Counted from the first letter of the stretch, positions 2,830 to 31,668 are shown. The stretch is 38,798 nucleotides of DNA from Candidatus Acetothermia bacterium (GCA_022684035.1 JAJHSB010000042.1:1-38798), one strand, 5' to 3'. Program-made: numbers and translations. The notes: a model not told the origin generated them from the letters alone.

Positions 2830-4060
2830 CTACCTCGATAAACTTGGTGTCTGTAAGGTGTAGCCTTCCTCACTTGTGGGGAAGATTTCTTCAAGTCGCA
2901 GGGTTCTACCGGTTTGTATCGCAGTAAAGCCATATTTGTCGCGGATGCGGTCAATGGCCGTATTTAGTTGCTCTATCCTTTGGGCTGATGAGTCGAACAG
3001 GTCAAGCTGCCTGGCCGGCTCAATCAAGTTTGATACCCCAATGCCAATGAGGCGAACCGGTTGCTTTTCCCGAGCTAGGGCTTTGTCCAATAGCTCTAGT
3101 CCGGTGTCAAAGATGGTCTGATCGGTATTGCTTGCTTGCTTTAAGGTGCGGCTACGGGTAATAGTGGTGAAATCAGCGTACCTCAGCTTCAAGGTTACGC
3201 ACCTGGTGTGCTTGCCCCCCCCCCCCGGCGCAGCTCGGCACCGACCCGTTCACTCAGATAACGGAGCGTTGCCTCGAGTAACGAGCGGTCCCAAGTATCT
3301 CTCCCGAAGGTAGTTTCTCGGCTGATGGACTTGGCAGCACCAGGAGGCTCTCTCTACTTGTCTATTATCAATGCCATTAGCATAGCGATGTAGAAGCTCA
3401 CCGGAGGCACCAAAACGGCTTTTAAGGGCGTTTAGCGGCATAAGAGATAGTTTAAGCGATAGTATCGATGCCCAAACCGCTTAATATTTTTTCTGTTTTC
3501 TTGCCCACTCCTGGTAGTTTAGTAACAGGTAATGGTGCCAGAAACGAGCGCTCTTCTCCGGGAGTTATTTCCAGTAACCCGTCTGGCTTGGATAACTCAG
3601 CGGCAATCTTGGCTACCACCTTACAGCTAGCGATGCCCACCGAGGAACAAAGCTCTAGTTCATCTTTTATGCGCTGCTTTATCATTACCGCCATCTGCCA
3701 AATTGAGCCATAGATAGATTCAAAGCCAGTTGCATCCAGATAGACTTCATCCAGCCCCACCGGTTCCAGAGAGGGCGAAAAATCAGCCAGGATAGCCATA
3801 AACCTTTGTGAAGCATCACGGTATTTGGGGAAGCTACCCTCGATGAAGGTAGCTTGCGGGCAGAGACGGCTGGCAGTGGCAAGTGGCATACCCGCACGTA
3901 AACCGAAAGCCCGGGCTTCATATGAGGCGCAAGCAACTACCCCCCGTTTGTCAGAGCTACCACCAACTACTACTGGTTTGCCCTGGAGCTCAGGATTCAG
4001 CGCTTGCTATACCGAGACAAAGAAGGCATCAAGGTCTACGTGCATAATAGTTCGTGCCAT
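2830..4060 (-). pseudogene. dinB: DNA polymerase IV (DinB, Y-family), disrupted
   Basis: Pieces in different frames reconstruct Pol IV: [60 protein letters not shown]... / ...SLEPVGLDEVYLDATG...LPGVGKKTEKILSGLGIDTIA / KSISRETTFGRDTWDRSLLEATLRYLSERVGAELRR / LKLRYADFTTITRSRT...EEIFPTSEEGYTLQTPSLSR. There is an in-frame TAG at 4007-4009 and frameshifts near 3455, near 3340 and at the C12 tract 3215-3226. Confidence 0.9.
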
Positions 4061-8925: not shown

Positions 8926-9224
8926 ACCTAACCCGGACAAGCCGGAAATCCCAATGACCAAATCTCAATTTCAAAACAATTACTCAGGAGCCAGGAGTCA
9001 GAATTCAGGAGTCAGAATGAAAAGCGACCCAGCCAAGAATTTTGAAGACTTGATTGTCTGGCAAAAGGCTCATCAATTCGTTTTATCCTTTATTCTGGCT
9101 TCTGGCTCCTGACTTCTGACTCCCGAGTAGTTACATTGGTGCTTGGAATTTGTGATTTCAATTCCCTCCCATTCCCCGCCTTCGCGAGGACAAGTTTGCG
9201 CAAGACTTCAGATTTTAGTATCTA
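8926..9224. repeat. Interspersed element copy A with inverted-repeat-bounded core
   Basis: Left flank CCTAACCCGGACAAGCCGGAAATCCCAATGACCAAATCTCAATTTCAAAACAAT and right flank ATTGGTGCTTGGAATTTGTGATTTCAATTCCCTCCCATTCCCCGCCTTCGCGAGGACAAGTTTGCGCAAGACTTCAGATTTTAGTATCTA are shared with 13736-14038. The core is in the opposite orientation. Confidence 0.9.
9017..9112 (+). pseudogene. Truncated four-helix-bundle (S23 / 23S rRNA IVP-like) start inside repeat copy A
   Basis: MKSDPAKNFEDLIVWQKAHQFVLSFILASGS*. The N-terminus matches the FEDLIVWQKAHQ... pattern of S23/IVP-like proteins, then runs into the inverted repeat. Confidence 0.65.
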
Positions 9225-9243
9225 AACGAGCATTATCTCTTTG

Positions 9244-9314
9244 GGATTGCCACGAGTTCTGCAAACTCTCGCAATGACAGGAAAAAAAGACCAAACTCTC
9301 GCAATGACAAGAAA
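9244..9314. repeat. REP-like palindrome variant with half-repeat duplicated
   Basis: ggattgccacgagttctgcaaactctcgcaatgacagg...ccaaactctcgcaatgacaagaaag. Confidence 0.7.
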
Positions 9315-9401
9315 GAGAAGATACGTTGCACCTCACTCTCGTGAGAAAAAGAGAATGACGAGGGATTAGGAGTGTAAACCTACGTGTCTATCCGGATAAA
9401 G

Positions 9402-10112
9402 TTACTTGACCTTAGACCGCTTCAGTTGACGTAGCGGCACTGGATTAAGTCCTCGTTGCTTAAGATTGGTAATGATTAACGGGAGGGCAGTCAACATAGG
9501 CGCGCTGGTGCCAAAGACAGAGTTTGCGTCGTGTAACAGAATGATACTCCCCGCGCTGCTATTCATTGCTACGTGGTGTGCAATCGCTGCTGGATCAATG
9601 AGTTTATAGTCTTGTGCATTGCAGGACCATAGCACTACTTCTCCCCGATTAGTACGTCCAGCGCTGAATGTCCGCAGATTGAATATTCCCCACGGGGGAC
9701 GGAAATATTCAATCGGCTTTCCTATGATCTGTTCCAATGCTTCTTTTCCCTGCCGGATCTCTTGCACCGTCTTTACCGGACCAAGCGACCACTGATGACG
9801 GTGATTATATGTGTGATTGCCAATGTCATGACCACCAGTTGCTATTTCCTGCACCAGATTCGGATATCTGTCGGCATGCTTTCCCACAAGGAAGAACGTC
9901 GCCTGAATGTTGTGACGAGCTAATACCTCTAATGTGCGGGGTGTATCGACTGGATGTGGTCCGTCGTCAAAGGTGAGCGCTACGCGGTTTACATCCCGCG
10001 GTCCATGCCACAGCACTTGACGACGTAAACGATGGAACCATAGATCAGGCAAGATGGTCCATAGACCGGCCAGTGAGAGAGTGATTCCGGTGATAGTCAC
10101 CAGCGCAGTCAT
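9402..10112 (-). CDS. Polysaccharide deacetylase (NodB-like)
   Basis: VALTFDDGPHP, GHDIGNHTYNHRHQWSL, YFRPPWG, IILLHDAN. Start taken at MTALVTITG, giving a 4-nt overlap with the upstream gene. Confidence 0.9.
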   Translation of the reverse strand: MTALVTITGITLSLAGLWTILPDLWFHRLRRQVLWHGPRDVNRVALTFDDGPHPVDTPRTLEVLARHNIQATFFLVGKHADRYPNLVQEIATGGHDIGNHTYNHRHQWSLGPVKTVQEIRQGKEALEQIIGKPIEYFRPPWGIFNLRTFSAGRTNRGEVVLWSCNAQDYKLIDPAAIAHHVAMNSSAGSIILLHDANSVFGTSAPMLTALPLIITNLKQRGLNPVPLRQLKRSKVK

Positions 10113-11653
10113 CGCAGTCGTTGATCGCTCTCTTCCCGCTGGTAGGCGATCTTCCCGCCGATGCACGTAAGGTCGATTTCGATCGTATTGATCTCATCGG
10201 AACAGCAATAAGGATCGCGCGCCGGCACAACAATATCAGCGAATTTTCCAGGGGAGAGCTCGCCTTTGATCCCTTCCTCAAATGAGGCGTATGCACCGCG
10301 TTCTGTGTATGCCTCGATCGCCTCTTTTACGGTAAGACGTTGATCAGGGTGTGGAGAATTAACAGCCCAATGAATTCCGTACAGAGGAGAGAAGGGCATG
10401 CAGTCCGAACCGAAGACCAACGGCACGCCGCCACAGCTAACAGTATGATGGGGATCAATCCGTCTATCCCTCTCCTTTCCCAGCGATTTTTCATACATCT
10501 TTCCTTGCCCGGACCACTCCCCGACAAAATTAGGTTGCATCGACGCAACGAGGTTTAGTTGTGCCATCTTCTCTATCTGCTCCGGCAAAATAAGCTCGAG
10601 ATGTTCGATACGGTGGCGCAATTTGCTGCTCGTCCCGGCAGTAGCATGAGCAGCGAGCACAACTGAGATTGCCTCTTCTCCGATCGCGTGGATTGCAGTC
10701 TGCAGTCTGGCCTCTTCTGCATCGCATAATATCTTCTCAACCTCGGCAGATGTAAAGTTAAGTCGGCCTTGCTGAGTGCTACCGCAGTACGGTGCATCTA
10801 ACGCTGCATTTTGCGCTCCGATCGATCCATCGACAAAGAGTTCACCGATACCGCCACAGCGAAGCCAGTGGTCACCGAATCCCGTCTCCATCCCCAGCTC
10901 GATAATATGACGCATCTCTTCCAATCGGAAATAAAGCAGGGTGCGAATAGTGAGTGATCCGTTCCGCTTTGCACTCTGGTAAGCACGAAACTGACTCGCA
11001 CGAACCGCCATATCATGAATCGAGGTTACACCGTAGGAGACAGCGATACGACAGGCAGCGCCGACTGCTGTAACGAGTGTCGTCTGATCAGGCTCGATCT
11101 GTTGGAGAAGATCCCATACCGCTTGTTCACGGAGAATCCCTGTTTGCAAATCGCATTCTGTCGCTGGATAGTGATCTTTGACATTACGCAATGCAAGGGT
11201 ATTCGCACTGATAAGATGTCCATCGATCCGGAGAGCAGCGATCGGATTATGCGGTCCAATTCGGTCCAGCTCCTCCCGGCTTAGATATCGATTATCCGGC
11301 CAGCAGCTTTCATCCCATCCCTGTCCGATGATCCATTCTCCTTGTCCACGCGCGCGGATAATATCAGATAACTGCGCCAGCACTCCTTCGCGACAAGAGC
11401 AACCAGAAAGGTCGACGAAAAAGTTCTCTCCCAGTCCTAAGTGGATAAAATGAGTGTGCCCATCAATAAACCCAGGAAGCGCAACGCGACCTTTAAGATC
11501 GATTATCTCAGTCTGCGGACCGATTAGATATTCTATCTCTTCCCGGCGACCGACTGCGGTGATTATCTCACCGGTAACGGCAAGCGCCGAATGAAAATCG
11601 CCTCCAGAAGAAAGAATCTTTCCATCTGTGAATACTAAATCAGCATATGTCAT
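10109..11653 (-). CDS. Amidohydrolase family protein (YtcJ-like)
   Basis: 514 aa: VALPGFIDGHTHFIHLGLG, QTAIHAIGEEAIS, RHRIEHLELI, VFGSDCMPFSPLYGIHWAVNSP. Confidence 0.9.
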   Translation of the reverse strand: MTYADLVFTDGKILSSGGDFHSALAVTGEIITAVGRREEIEYLIGPQTEIIDLKGRVALPGFIDGHTHFIHLGLGENFFVDLSGCSCREGVLAQLSDIIRARGQGEWIIGQGWDESCWPDNRYLSREELDRIGPHNPIAALRIDGHLISANTLALRNVKDHYPATECDLQTGILREQAVWDLLQQIEPDQTTLVTAVGAACRIAVSYGVTSIHDMAVRASQFRAYQSAKRNGSLTIRTLLYFRLEEMRHIIELGMETGFGDHWLRCGGIGELFVDGSIGAQNAALDAPYCGSTQQGRLNFTSAEVEKILCDAEEARLQTAIHAIGEEAISVVLAAHATAGTSSKLRHRIEHLELILPEQIEKMAQLNLVASMQPNFVGEWSGQGKMYEKSLGKERDRRIDPHHTVSCGGVPLVFGSDCMPFSPLYGIHWAVNSPHPDQRLTVKEAIEAYTERGAYASFEEGIKGELSPGKFADIVVPARDPYCCSDEINTIEIDLTCIGGKIAYQREESDQRLR

Positions 11654-11702
11654 TTTAATTCCTCCTACACAAGTTTACTCGCACAGTAGCAGGGAAAGCA
11701 AC

Positions 11703-11757
11703 AGAGTTCGTTGAGTTCGGAAAGAAAACAATGAACTCTATGAACCCTACGAACTCT
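11703..11757. repeat. Inverted repeat AGAGTTCGT...ACGAACTCT within a 'gaactctatgaac' interspersed repeat
   Basis: Perfect 9-bp arms. Related 'aactctat(g/a)aa' motifs recur near 22383-22421 and 31328-31345. Confidence 0.65.
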
Positions 11758-11808
11758 TTCTGGACTGCGAACCACGAACGGGGACGGTCCCCTTGTTTTC
11801 CTGTTTTC

Positions 11809-13173
11809 CTATATTCTAATCTGTTGCCATCTTCCTTGCTGAAAGTACCACCAAGTAGCCAGCCCTTGGGTAATAGTGGAGATCGTCATTGCCCACCAGA
11901 TGCCGGTTGTCTGGAAATCCAACAGAAAAGCAAGTATGTAAACTAATGGTAGACGAACGAACCAGCCATGGATAAGAGAGTATTTGAGCGGCGTCATTGT
12001 GTCGCCTGCCCCTTGTAATCCTCCGGAAAAGACCATGACCAATGCCAAAAATGGCTGGGAATAGGCCATAATGCGTAAAAAATCGGCACCGATGTCCACT
12101 ACATATGCGTTAGTTGAAAATATGCTGATAATCGGCCGGGCAAAGAAGAATAGCAGCAGTCCCATTACTGACATAAAGAGGGCGGCAAGTGCTGTTGCAG
12201 ATTTACTGCTCTGTTTAGCACGTTCTGGCTTACGTGCTCCGAGGTTCTGTCCGACGAGCGTCATTGCCGCAGCACCGAATGCGAGTCCTGGCATAAAAGA
12301 GATCGCTTCAATCTGAAAACCGATACTGAACGCTGCTACAGCGTAAGTGCTATGCACCGTCATTGCAACGAACCGCATCAGAATCATAGCGGCACCGCTG
12401 CGCACCAGTCCTTGTACACCTGCAGGAAAGCCGATACGGATAATTTTACTGATCAATGTCAGTTGCAATTTGAACCGTTTATGGAGTAGGGTACGAGCAG
12501 CAAATCGATCACTTACCAACACCCATAACCCGATTCCCCCACCGACAGAACGAGCGATAACCGTTCCCCATGCTGCACCGATGATCCCCATCTGCGGAAA
12601 GAAGCCGATGCCGAAGATGAGAAGATAATTCAATATGATATTGAGAGTATTGATCAGTGCCATAATCTTAAGTGGTGTCCGCGTATCGCCTGCTCCCTGG
12701 AGGATGGCATTGATGACGAAATTAAGCCCCATAAATAATAGACCAGCGAAGATGATGCGCAGATAAGGAATCCCCAGTGTAATAATCTCTGGCTCTGCGC
12801 CTAACAGGCGGAGGAATAACGGTGAGAAAAGCAGACCGATAGTGGCGAGGAGCGCTGTTACGATAATACTTAAGATCAACGCCTGGTCAACCACACAGGT
12901 CGATTGCTCCTTATCCTTAGCGCCGGTGTAGCGGGCGACCAATGCCTGCGCGCCGGTGGAGACGGCCAAAATGAAGATGATGACAACCATCAAGATGAAT
13001 CGTCCCATCCCCACGGCAGCTAATGGTTGAGTTCCCAGCCGGCCGACCATTATCGTATCAGCGATACCGAGTGTTGTTTGTAGCAGAGAAGTTATAACGA
13101 TCGGCCACACCAAAAAGAGGACATTTCCCACGTGATTGCCTGTGGTCAGATCTTTTGCAATCTTATGTTCCAC
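11809..13173 (-). CDS. MATE family efflux transporter
   Basis: 454 aa polytopic protein: IADTIMVGRLGTQPLAAVGMG, LQGAGDTRTPLK, GLQGAGDTMTPLKYSL. Confidence 0.92.
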   Translation of the reverse strand: MEHKIAKDLTTGNHVGNVLFLVWPIVITSLLQTTLGIADTIMVGRLGTQPLAAVGMGRFILMVVIIFILAVSTGAQALVARYTGAKDKEQSTCVVDQALILSIIVTALLATIGLLFSPLFLRLLGAEPEIITLGIPYLRIIFAGLLFMGLNFVINAILQGAGDTRTPLKIMALINTLNIILNYLLIFGIGFFPQMGIIGAAWGTVIARSVGGGIGLWVLVSDRFAARTLLHKRFKLQLTLISKIIRIGFPAGVQGLVRSGAAMILMRFVAMTVHSTYAVAAFSIGFQIEAISFMPGLAFGAAAMTLVGQNLGARKPERAKQSSKSATALAALFMSVMGLLLFFFARPIISIFSTNAYVVDIGADFLRIMAYSQPFLALVMVFSGGLQGAGDTMTPLKYSLIHGWFVRLPLVYILAFLLDFQTTGIWWAMTISTITQGLATWWYFQQGRWQQIRI

Positions 13174-13631
13174 TAATTAGCACCTTTGGTCATTATTTGG
13201 CAAATAACCCGCAAGCCGTTAATAAGCTCTTCGCTGGTTCGCTCATCGAGCTGAGAAAAGATACCGGTCAGATATTTCTGTTCAATAATGCGCGACAGCT
13301 TGGTCTTCAATGCGCTTCCTTCGGCGGTTAATTGCACTGTGACGATACGACGATCAATCTCGTCCCGTCTTCGGGTGACAAGCCCTTTCCCTTCCAGTCG
13401 GTCGATGATGCCAGATGTCGTACTCGCTGCTAAGCCGAGACCGCTGCTGATTTTACTGATCGGTTGGTTATCACTGTGCCATAAGCGGACCAAAGTGTGT
13501 AATTGCGGAATCGTCAAGTCATGCTTCTCTGCGGTTGCATGATACTCTTGGTGAAGCCGCTTGCGAATCTTACGAATTAAACTGAGAAATTCTTCCGGCC
13601 GGTTGAGTGGCATCTCTTCTTGGATTGTCAT
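13173..13631 (-). CDS. MarR family transcriptional regulator
   Basis: 152 aa wHTH: LTIPQLHTLVRLWHSDNQPISKISSGLGLAASTTSGIIDRLEGKGLVTRRRDEIDRRIVTVQLTAEG. Adjoins the MATE gene. Confidence 0.9.
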   Translation of the reverse strand: MTIQEEMPLNRPEEFLSLIRKIRKRLHQEYHATAEKHDLTIPQLHTLVRLWHSDNQPISKISSGLGLAASTTSGIIDRLEGKGLVTRRRDEIDRRIVTVQLTAEGSALKTKLSRIIEQKYLTGIFSQLDERTSEELINGLRVICQIMTKGAN

Positions 13632-13735
13632 TCTGTTCCTCGCGGTCTTTTTCGGATACTATTATTTCGCATCCGAATTTATACCTTATTATTTGTAATA
13701 TCGCAAGTAGAGAACAGGAAGAGAAATTATCTGTC

Positions 13736-14038
13736 CCTAACCCGGACAAGCCGGAAATCCCAATGACCAAATCTCAATTTCAAAACAATAACCGTGACTA
13801 CTCAGGAGTCAGAAGTCAGAAGCCAGAATAGAGGATAAAACGAATTGATGAGCCTTTTGCCAAACAATCAAGTCTTGAAAATGCTTGGTTGGTTCCCCTT
13901 TCATTCTGACTCCTGAATTCTGGCTTCTGGCTCCTGATTTATTTGGATATTGGTGCTTGGAATTTGTGATTTCAATTCCCTCCCATTCCCCGCCTTCGCG
14001 AGGACAAGTTTGCGCAAGACTTCAGATTTTAGTATCTA
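13736..14038. repeat. Interspersed element copy B; flanks co-oriented with copy A but core inverted
   Basis: Shared flanks as in copy A. The core is the reverse complement of copy A's core (with divergence). Confidence 0.9.
13809..13904 (-). pseudogene. Truncated four-helix-bundle (S23/IVP-like) start inside repeat copy B
   Basis: Reverse strand reads MKGEPTKHFQDLIVWQKAHQFVLSSILASDF*, homologous to the copy A fragment. Confidence 0.65.
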
Positions 14039-16927: not shown

Positions 16928-17950
16928 ATGGGCAAAGAACAAGATGTGTTAGAGAATACGCTTAAACAGATTAAAAAGATACATGGTGAAGGAGCAATAA
17001 TGTGGTTGGGCGATGGGGCGGCGGCTCTCGCTGTTGATGTGATCACAAGTGGGGCACTTGCCCTGGATATCGCACTTGGAGTCGGGGGAATCCCTCGCGG
17101 TCGTATCACAGAGATCTATGGATCTGAAGGAAGTGGCAAGACCACCCTTGCGCTGCACATGCTCGCAGAGACGCAAAAAATAGGTGGAACAGCCGCATTT
17201 ATCGATGCGGAACATGCACTTGATCCGACCTATGCGCGCACTATCGGGGTCGATATCGACCATCTCCTTCTTGCGCAGCCGAATTCAGGCGAACAAGCAC
17301 TGGAAATAGTCGAGCAACTTACGCGCAGTGGAACGATCGATATCATTGTCATTGATTCTGTCGCGGCGTTGGTTCCGATTGCTGAGATCGAAGGACAGAT
17401 GGGAGACACGCAAGTTGGGCTGCAGGCACGGCTGATGTCACAGGCGATGCGGAAATTGGCAGGTGTCATCTCTCAGACACGTACAATCGTCGTTTTTATC
17501 AATCAGATCCGCGCGATGATTGGCGCCAGTCGGTTTGGGCCTGCCACCACGACCTCGGGCGGAAGAGCGCTTAAATTTTACTCCTCAGTACGCCTCAACA
17601 TCTGCAACGCCGAGAAGATCGAAGAGGGCACAGATAGAATCGGTACCCGTGTAACAGTGAGAGTGGTAAAGAACAAAGTTGCTCCACCGTTCAAAGAGGC
17701 ACAGTTTGACATCATATTCGGCAAAGGGATCGTCAAAGAACGTGAGTTACTCAATGTCGGCGATAAGTTGGGGATAGTTTCTCGCAGTGGATCGTGGTAT
17801 TCCTTCGAGGGAACTCGCCTTGGACAGGGACTGACAAATAGTTCTCGTTTCCTGAGTGAAAACCCCAAGATTGCTGTTGCTCTTGAACAGGTAGTACGGG
17901 AGAAAGCAGGTCTCCCTCCCATAATGACTGAGCAAAGTGCCCTAAGTTAA
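16928..17950 (+). CDS. recA: Recombinase RecA
   Basis: [56 protein letters not shown]. Confidence 0.98.
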
Positions 17951-31298: not shown

Positions 31299-31518
31299 TT
31301 CGGGGACGGATTGTGGTTTGGAAAGAAGTTCATAGAGTTTGTTGAGGTCATTGGGACAGAAGTGGCTTGTGGCCAGTAGTCTGTAGGGGCACGGCAGATA
31401 GCATTCAGCAATCAGCTCTCAGCCATCAGCAACTTGCAGTCAGTTGGGAAATAACATGTAGCGGCACACCATGCCGTGCTCCTACCGAAAATCACAACGA
31501 TATCTTCACAAAGACCCG

Positions 31519-31568
31519 CGGGTGGTTCAGAGCCAGAGTCCGTCATTGCGAGTCTGCGAAGCAATCCC
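31519..31568 (+). repeat. REP-like palindrome plus extension
   Basis: ggtggttcagagccagagtccgtcattgcgagtctgcgaagcaatcccg, inverted partner of 34524-34572. Confidence 0.75.
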
Positions 31569-31631
31569 GTTCGTAGAGGAGAGGTGACTGGTTGCTGGCT
31601 TCTGTCTACTGTCTACCGGCTTCTGATTCGA

Positions 31632-31668
31632 GATTGCCACGAGTTCTGCGAACTCTCGCAATGACAAG
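31632..31668. repeat. REP-like palindrome variant
   Basis: gattgccacgagttctgcgaactctcgcaatgacaag, nearly identical to 9245-9281. Confidence 0.7.

Follow-up and report, generated by a model that had tools for sequence, protein, structure and literature searches.

Nested hairpin repeats in a Candidatus Acetothermia genome point to intervening-sequence-like mobile elements outside rRNA genes

The window, i.e. the whole stretch of 38,798 nucleotides from a Candidatus Acetothermia bacterium that was analyzed here, contains two copies of a repeat of approximately 300 bp, copy A at 8927-9224 and copy B at 13736-14038 (Table 1). The original prediction, made from the sequence alone, had described these copies as carrying co-oriented flanks around opposed middles, and the alignments bear this out. 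The left flanks (57 nt, 98% identical) and the right flanks (90 nt, 100% identical) are direct repeats, and the middles match each other in inverted orientation over 142 nt with 89% identity. As had also been noticed, both middles are bounded by inverted arms, which consist of CAGGAGTCAGAATT-type units. When folded as RNA, core A forms a hairpin of -63.4 kcal/mol (z -6.5 versus shuffled sequences) and core B one of -52.7 kcal/mol (z -4.9). The arms of core A are 7-nt tandem repeats; lag 7 gave match fractions of 0.64-0.71 and lag 14 fractions of 0.68-0.73, and none of the remaining lags between 4 and 13 exceeded 0.32. When the whole window was scanned for a 7-nt period, exactly the four arms of cores A and B emerged together with a few weaker places, and the search of the window for Rfam families found none.

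Table 1. Positions of the two composite repeats and their parts in the window.
Feature	Position	Strand	Evidence or remark
Outer repeat left flank, copy A	8927..8980	+	98% identity with 13736-13792; ~35 genome copies of the flank
Core A, internal-deletion derivative of the PF05635 element, forward	8981..9134	+	Hairpin z -6.5; 94% identity to the left 104 nt plus right arm of the full-length element on C21
Left heptad arm, core A	8981..9016	+	CAGGAGC CAGGAGT CAGAATT CAGGAGT CAGAATG; autocorrelation maxima at lags 7 and 14
Truncated PF05635 reading frame MKSDPAKNFEDLIVWQKAHQFVLSFILASGS*, core A	9017..9112	+	Right arm encodes the last residues
Right heptad arm, core A	9089..9134	+	Terminal repeat CTCCCGAGTAGTTAC at the end
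Outer repeat right flank, copy A	9135..9224	+	100% identity with 13949-14038
Outer repeat left flank, copy B	13736..13793	+	Flank comparison with copy A
Core B, same derivative reversed	13794..13937	-	In the seven-copy clade, support 97/96
Truncated PF05635 reading frame MKGEPTKHFQDLIVWQKAHQFVLSSILASDF*, core B	13809..13904	-	Pfam and comparison with the C21 protein
Outer repeat right flank, copy B	13938..14038	+	Flank comparison with copy A

Some other features of the window are worth recording in their own right. A second place with 7-nt periodicity lies at 31386-31441 and 31574-31637 (ATTCAGCAATCAGCTCTCAGCC and GGTTGCTGGCTTCTGTCTACTG), which is possibly a decayed element with another arm type. 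Short TTGCCACGAGTTCTGCAAACTCTCGCAATGACA repeats occur at 9240-9330 and 31542-31665 and also beside many outer copies, and represent a further repeat layer. Moreover, an impB/mucB/samB (DinB-like) polymerase gene at 2830-3889 is split into a C-terminal ORF (2830-3192) and an N-terminal ORF (3452-3889), i.e. this gene is possibly broken.

The identity of the cores became apparent from the remainder of the genome. Read in gene orientation, the core starts with MKSDPAKNFEDLIVWQKAHQFVLS, which corresponds to the N-terminus of PF05635 proteins. This is the 23S rRNA intervening-sequence (IVS) family (S23p, 23S_rRNA_IVP), a four-helix bundle. A profile search of the genome detected one intact PF05635 gene, at C21:28984-29286 (C denotes contigs), located in a full-length parent element of 439 bp (C21:28916-29354) that is intact only once in the genome and has the layout GTAACTACTCAGGAGCCAGGAGCCAGAATTCAGGAGTCAGA-ATG, gene, TTCTGGATTCTGGCTCCTGACTCCTGAGTGGTTAC. 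Its protein of 129 aa matches PF05635 above the cut-off (E 5e-34), and the nearest solved structure is that of Xanthomonas XCC0516 (2GSC, E 6.6e-17). According to our reading of the surrounding sequence, the parent seems to be inserted in a putative ISL3-like transposase remnant. The core represents the first ~105 nt of this parent joined to its last ~50 nt, and the window cores keep the N-terminal ~27 codons of the gene and no more. The truncated frame alone gives a weak match to the Pfam profile (E 0.09 for core A), and the truncated frames of the different copies show 70-86% identity to the N-terminus of the C21 protein. All well-preserved cores have the common deletion endpoints TTTTATC^CTYTATTCTGG, hence these short copies descend from one deletion. 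The cores on C44 and C54 are truncated at one end, those at C9:43752 and on C67 carry extra insertions in the middle, and a deletion of another kind is seen in two short forms (C50, C81). A CCCCTGAACATGTC hairpin was found nested in two cores (L010/L052: C9:43752, C67), and another arm type (GGGGTCAAGGGGTCAAG) is nested in a PF05635 remnant (L034/L054, C51:49809).

The search of the genome with the outer repeat or the core yielded 68 matches. The outer repeat is itself a dispersed hairpin with roughly 7-nt-periodic arms of its own, and at least four alternative middles, M1 to M4, occupy the same place in it. M1 is the commonest and gives a long hairpin of -60.8 kcal/mol, M2 has CTCGTGACTCGTGG arms, M3 is the reversed core in seven copies (copy B of the window, i.e. 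C68 B, as well as C64, C35, C78, C72, C9:5491 and C43), and M4 is the forward core, which is restricted to copy A. Cores outside the outer repeat occur in at least six places (C77:65082, C9:42684, C9:43752, C67, C44 and C54). The collection of all copies, which had been recommended together with the scoring of their orientation, thus gives one forward-nested, seven reverse-nested and at least six un-nested cores. The occurrence of the core outside the outer repeat and the existence of a gene-carrying parent uphold the proposal of a small mobile element that inserted independently in either orientation into a larger repeat. The original prediction had, however, recognized neither the gene remnant, nor the parent, nor the heptads. 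Mapped on the M1 hairpin, the breakpoints of M3 fall on the paired positions 65 and 158, i.e. the reverse core replaces the distal stem, while the breakpoints of M4 are off pairing by ~9 nt and those of M2 are asymmetric. This one clear case is suggestive of core insertion by hairpin-tip replacement.

Empty sites and target duplications had also been suggested as a check on the window's element, and this search gave neither a clean target-site duplication nor an intact empty site. When paralogues of the sequences beside un-nested cores were compared within the genome, these flanks proved rearranged and offered no clean empty site, and the DNA around the element at C21 and C9 appears to have undergone rearrangement or deletion. 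A DNA-level search of the other genomes of the phylum found neither the window's element nor the outer repeat. The same-genus genome G001 is syntenic with the window from 9403 to 13714, the synteny stops short of both elements, and the contigs of G001 break at both places where an empty site was looked for. Contig C53 of G001 (L144 4780-5200), which matches the window around 13.7 kb, contains no outer repeat, several other heptad-like arrays and a contig end. Furthermore, the window segment 36550-36916 at the end of a DUF255/DsbH thioredoxin gene has a 91-92% identical copy at C9:42290-42656, beside an un-nested core.

The opposed orientations of the two window cores had alternatively been explained by an invertible cassette. 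Such a switch should present the same junctions in both orientations, which is not the case here. Core A is joined to the outer repeat by CAAT/TACTCAGG and GTAGTTAC/ATTGG (the slash marks the junction), core B by CAATAACC/GTGACTACTCAGG and CTCCTGA/TTTATTTGG. The seven M3 cores have common arm changes, end truncations and the junctions AATAACC/GTGACTACTCAGG and CTCCTGA/TTTRTTTGGAWATTGG with small variations, whereas core A has a complete right terminus, arms of the un-nested type and none of the M3 truncations and junctions. In the tree the M3 cores form one clade (97/96) with core A outside, and among the assembled copies no locus was seen in both orientations. Differing junctions and the M3 phylogeny led us to reject the invertible switch. 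Among the window ORFs of 100 aa or more that were scanned with Pfam, none encodes a recombinase, as originally noted, if RecA (16928-17950) is set aside, and none is an invertase gene. A flip in place is physically possible since the arms are inverted repeats; it could be carried out by a site-specific recombinase or through recombination of the core's own arms with each other, as has been described for Wolbachia insertion sequences (PMC3004938). In their outer flanks, copies A and B are closer to each other than to the other copies, sharing a CAAAACAAT variant and the identical 90-nt right flank. A tree that places core A as the sister group of the M3 clade was not rejected (p-AU 0.40), hence a flip before the amplification of M3 is compatible with the tree alone. 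We nevertheless regard a flip as very unlikely, because it would have kept the outer/arm junctions, both of which differ, core A falls outside the reverse clade, and no invertase was detected among the scanned ORFs.

An assembly chimera that artificially joined core A to the outer repeat also has to be considered. The genome is fragmented into 81 contigs, many of which end in these repeats, and copy A is the sole forward-nested case. However, the 38.8-kb contig continues into unique sequence to either side of copy A, no other copy has junctions like those of copy A, and the 4.3 kb between the two copies are syntenic with G001, which makes a chimera highly improbable. Since the reverse cores form a clade excluding core A and their truncations and junctions are missing in core A, the two orientations look like separate captures, one of which was later amplified together with the outer repeat. 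With separate captures, the close relationship of the A and B flanks must be explained by an additional local event, and suggests that the middle was exchanged or that gene conversion took place between these neighbors at a distance of 4.8 kb.

The association of PF05635 genes with inverted heptad arms is not restricted to this genome. Homologues of the C21 protein were found in 42 of 100 genomes of the phylum. At each locus, 150 nt upstream were compared with the reverse complement of 250 nt downstream, and displaced positions served as controls. The inverted-arm score exceeded all 109 displaced controls at 21 of 29 phylum loci (p 4e-14), and the best period of the downstream stretch was 7 or 14 at 27 of the 29. 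Outside the phylum, a scan with the 21-nt string CAGAATTCAGGAGTCAGAATG gave at least 115 stretches in at least 13 named NCBI phyla, where ~0.1 would be expected by chance according to our own arithmetic for 257 Gb. From 36 genomes of other phyla, picked by the arm motif, 30 loci were returned that had been ranked by protein score and not by arms. The arm score at 24 of these 30 was above all 120 controls, and 24 showed a period of 7 or 14; phylum and arm-selected genomes combined, the arms at 45 of 59 loci scored above all displaced controls. PF05635 genes were present in 32 of the 36 arm-string genomes, which are not a random sample, and in 0 of 14 control genomes. Hence, in the phylum and in the 36 arm-selected genomes, PF05635 genes are usually located between matching inverted arms, mostly heptads. 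In viral contigs holding a 17-nt arm motif, the HMM built for this analysis detected no PF05635 gene. In several genera, PF05635 cassettes with different arms in each case lie just upstream of a gene with an IPILDLxRQYAAI-like beginning (L094, L108, L111, L112, L113), which likely encodes a DegT-type aminotransferase; this site is a possible insertion hot spot.

Arm and protein types are also linked. In a tree of 53 proteins, all eight whose genes have CAGGAGT-type arms group in a single clade (100/99), with members from the present genome, Lentisphaeria, Victivallales, Desulfotruncus arcticus DSM 17038, another Bacillota genome, Bryobacterales, Verrucomicrobiota and one further bacterium. The clade spans at least four phyla, where the labels may be blurred by mislabelled MAG contigs, although D. 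arcticus is an isolate. This distribution indicates that arm and protein travel together, and arm similarity is correlated with protein similarity among 30 loci (Mantel r 0.49, p 0.0002). A case of presence and absence at one site is found in one genus of the class, where an element separates the genes hdrA and hdrB, so named from our reading of the flanking protein sequences, in G058 and G060, whereas both genes are directly adjacent and element-free in G057, G061 and G062. This is a gain or loss at the hdrA/hdrB site, in either direction. The right arm is here read in frame into HdrB (MNRTPAHHPSPITHYPSRLLYFPGC versus MNRLVYFPGC). The extra N-terminal peptide HHPSPITHYPS of HdrB is encoded by the right arm (L098 1869-2018, G058; L092); arm sequence can thus be read into host proteins, which is a warning to annotators.

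Collectively, we consider it probable that each window copy consists of two nested selfish hairpins, in which the core is a MITE-like derivative of an IVS-type element that was captured twice in the outer hairpin. The starting point would be a small IVS-type mobile element with a PF05635/S23p gene between inverted heptanucleotide-repeat arms. A single ancestral internal deletion took out the bulk of the gene but spared its first ~27 codons and both arms, and the short form then presumably spread in trans without its own gene. At least two insertions of opposite direction would have brought it into the distal portion of the outer hairpin, whereupon the reverse-nested composite was copied to at least seven places and the forward-nested one stayed single. 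We infer that the S23p protein may recognize and bind its own heptad hairpin and drive or help its mobilization, and that insertion may favor or replace hairpin tips.

Whether the S23p protein plays any role in this process is the point at which a serious rival has to be weighed, namely that the hairpins spread passively by replication slippage, template switching or repair capture. Among the 115 matches to the 21-nt arm string that were listed, 3 are cut by a contig edge and only 2 have a clear PF05635 match, so that 110 of the 112 usable ones are without a clear PF05635 gene, which favors passive spread; target deletions also seem to accompany several insertions, and the search of the genome for an RVT_1 reverse transcriptase gave no match, which removes this enzyme as the mobility enzyme here. 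On the other hand, each arm unit has been inherited together with its protein clade across phyla, PF05635 genes occur in most of the genomes selected by the arm motif, and relics with the first codons of the gene exist in several phyla; among the listed matches, six more keep just the first codons or are cut, for example MKEPAKTFEDL. Passive spread is therefore in our view unlikely. To our knowledge, PF05635 proteins have no known catalytic activity, hence another enzyme may do the cutting. Together with the missing RVT_1 and three Y1 transposase matches in the genome, this leaves a partner enzyme as a candidate. In a further alternative, a hairpin-processing Y1 (HUH) transposase would mobilize the cores, as in REP/RAYT or IS200/IS605 systems, with the PF05635 gene as cargo. 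The three Y1 matches and the hairpin nature of the substrate are in line with it; the repeats are, however, linked to PF05635 genes, and Y1 genes alone leave the co-inheritance of arm and protein unexplained, making this alternative quite unlikely.

Our favored explanation of nested IVS-type hairpins finds its closest counterpart in the IVS of 23S rRNA genes in Coxiella and Leptospira (PMC4990558). These likewise have a PF05635 gene inside a stem of inverted terminal repeats, as does the parent element described here, heptamers in tandem up to the start codon (GACAGAT in Coxiella, CAGGAGT in the present element), and insertion at hairpin tips with replacement of a loop, which the M3 case suggests for the core as well. 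The Coxiella study described S23p, the heptamers before its start codon and the tip replacement in rRNA helices, and cited earlier authors for the idea that IVS were once mobile (PMC4990558). In contrast to these IVS, the present element occurs in several copies that are intergenic, in a transposase-like remnant or inside other repeats and not in rRNA genes, and its gene-less derivatives spread and nest. With MITEs the core has in common that it is short, arose by internal deletion from a full-length element of the same genome, has terminal inverted repeats and outnumbers its parent, whereas this parent is without a recognizable transposase, the arms are heptad arrays and no target-site duplication was seen. 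IS1272 also inserts by replacing part of an inverted repeat without target duplication, but it encodes a transposase (PMC5678879), and the core has one well-placed case (positions 65/158) with the others being less symmetric. Finally, heptanucleotide tandem repeats, such as STRR sequences, are known between genes of distant lineages; TAACTGA repeats were reported in Beggiatoaceae, cyanobacteria and Bacteroidetes, for whose transmission "no mechanism is evident" (PMC4679880), and GGGAATC repeats in Xanthomonas and Nostoc (PMC4692102). Unlike these, many arrays found here enclose PF05635 genes, or relics of such genes, as inverted arms. S23p does not occur in the texts of PMC4679880 and PMC4692102, and in the open-access literature we found no paper joining S23p IVS with heptanucleotide repeats or describing S23p elements outside rRNA.

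The IVS have been known for more than 25 years as oddities of rRNA genes, and the function of the S23 protein is unassigned. We also know of no agreed origin for the heptanucleotide repeats in cyanobacteria and other bacteria. Our comparisons are pointing to IVS-like elements outside rRNA that appear to shed MITE-like derivatives and may represent a widespread, little-described class of mobile DNA. A broader generalization, about which we are somewhat more doubtful than confident, is that PF05635 proteins define a large class of mobile elements without recognizable transposase, with lineage-matched heptad arms, travel across phyla, shedding of gene-less hairpins and mutual nesting at hairpin tips, in which the rRNA IVS would be a special case and many orphan heptanucleotide repeats would be relics. 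If arm and protein co-evolve, the puzzles of the IVS and of the heptanucleotide repeats would merge into one testable question, namely whether S23p proteins bind the heptad hairpins of their own elements and move them.
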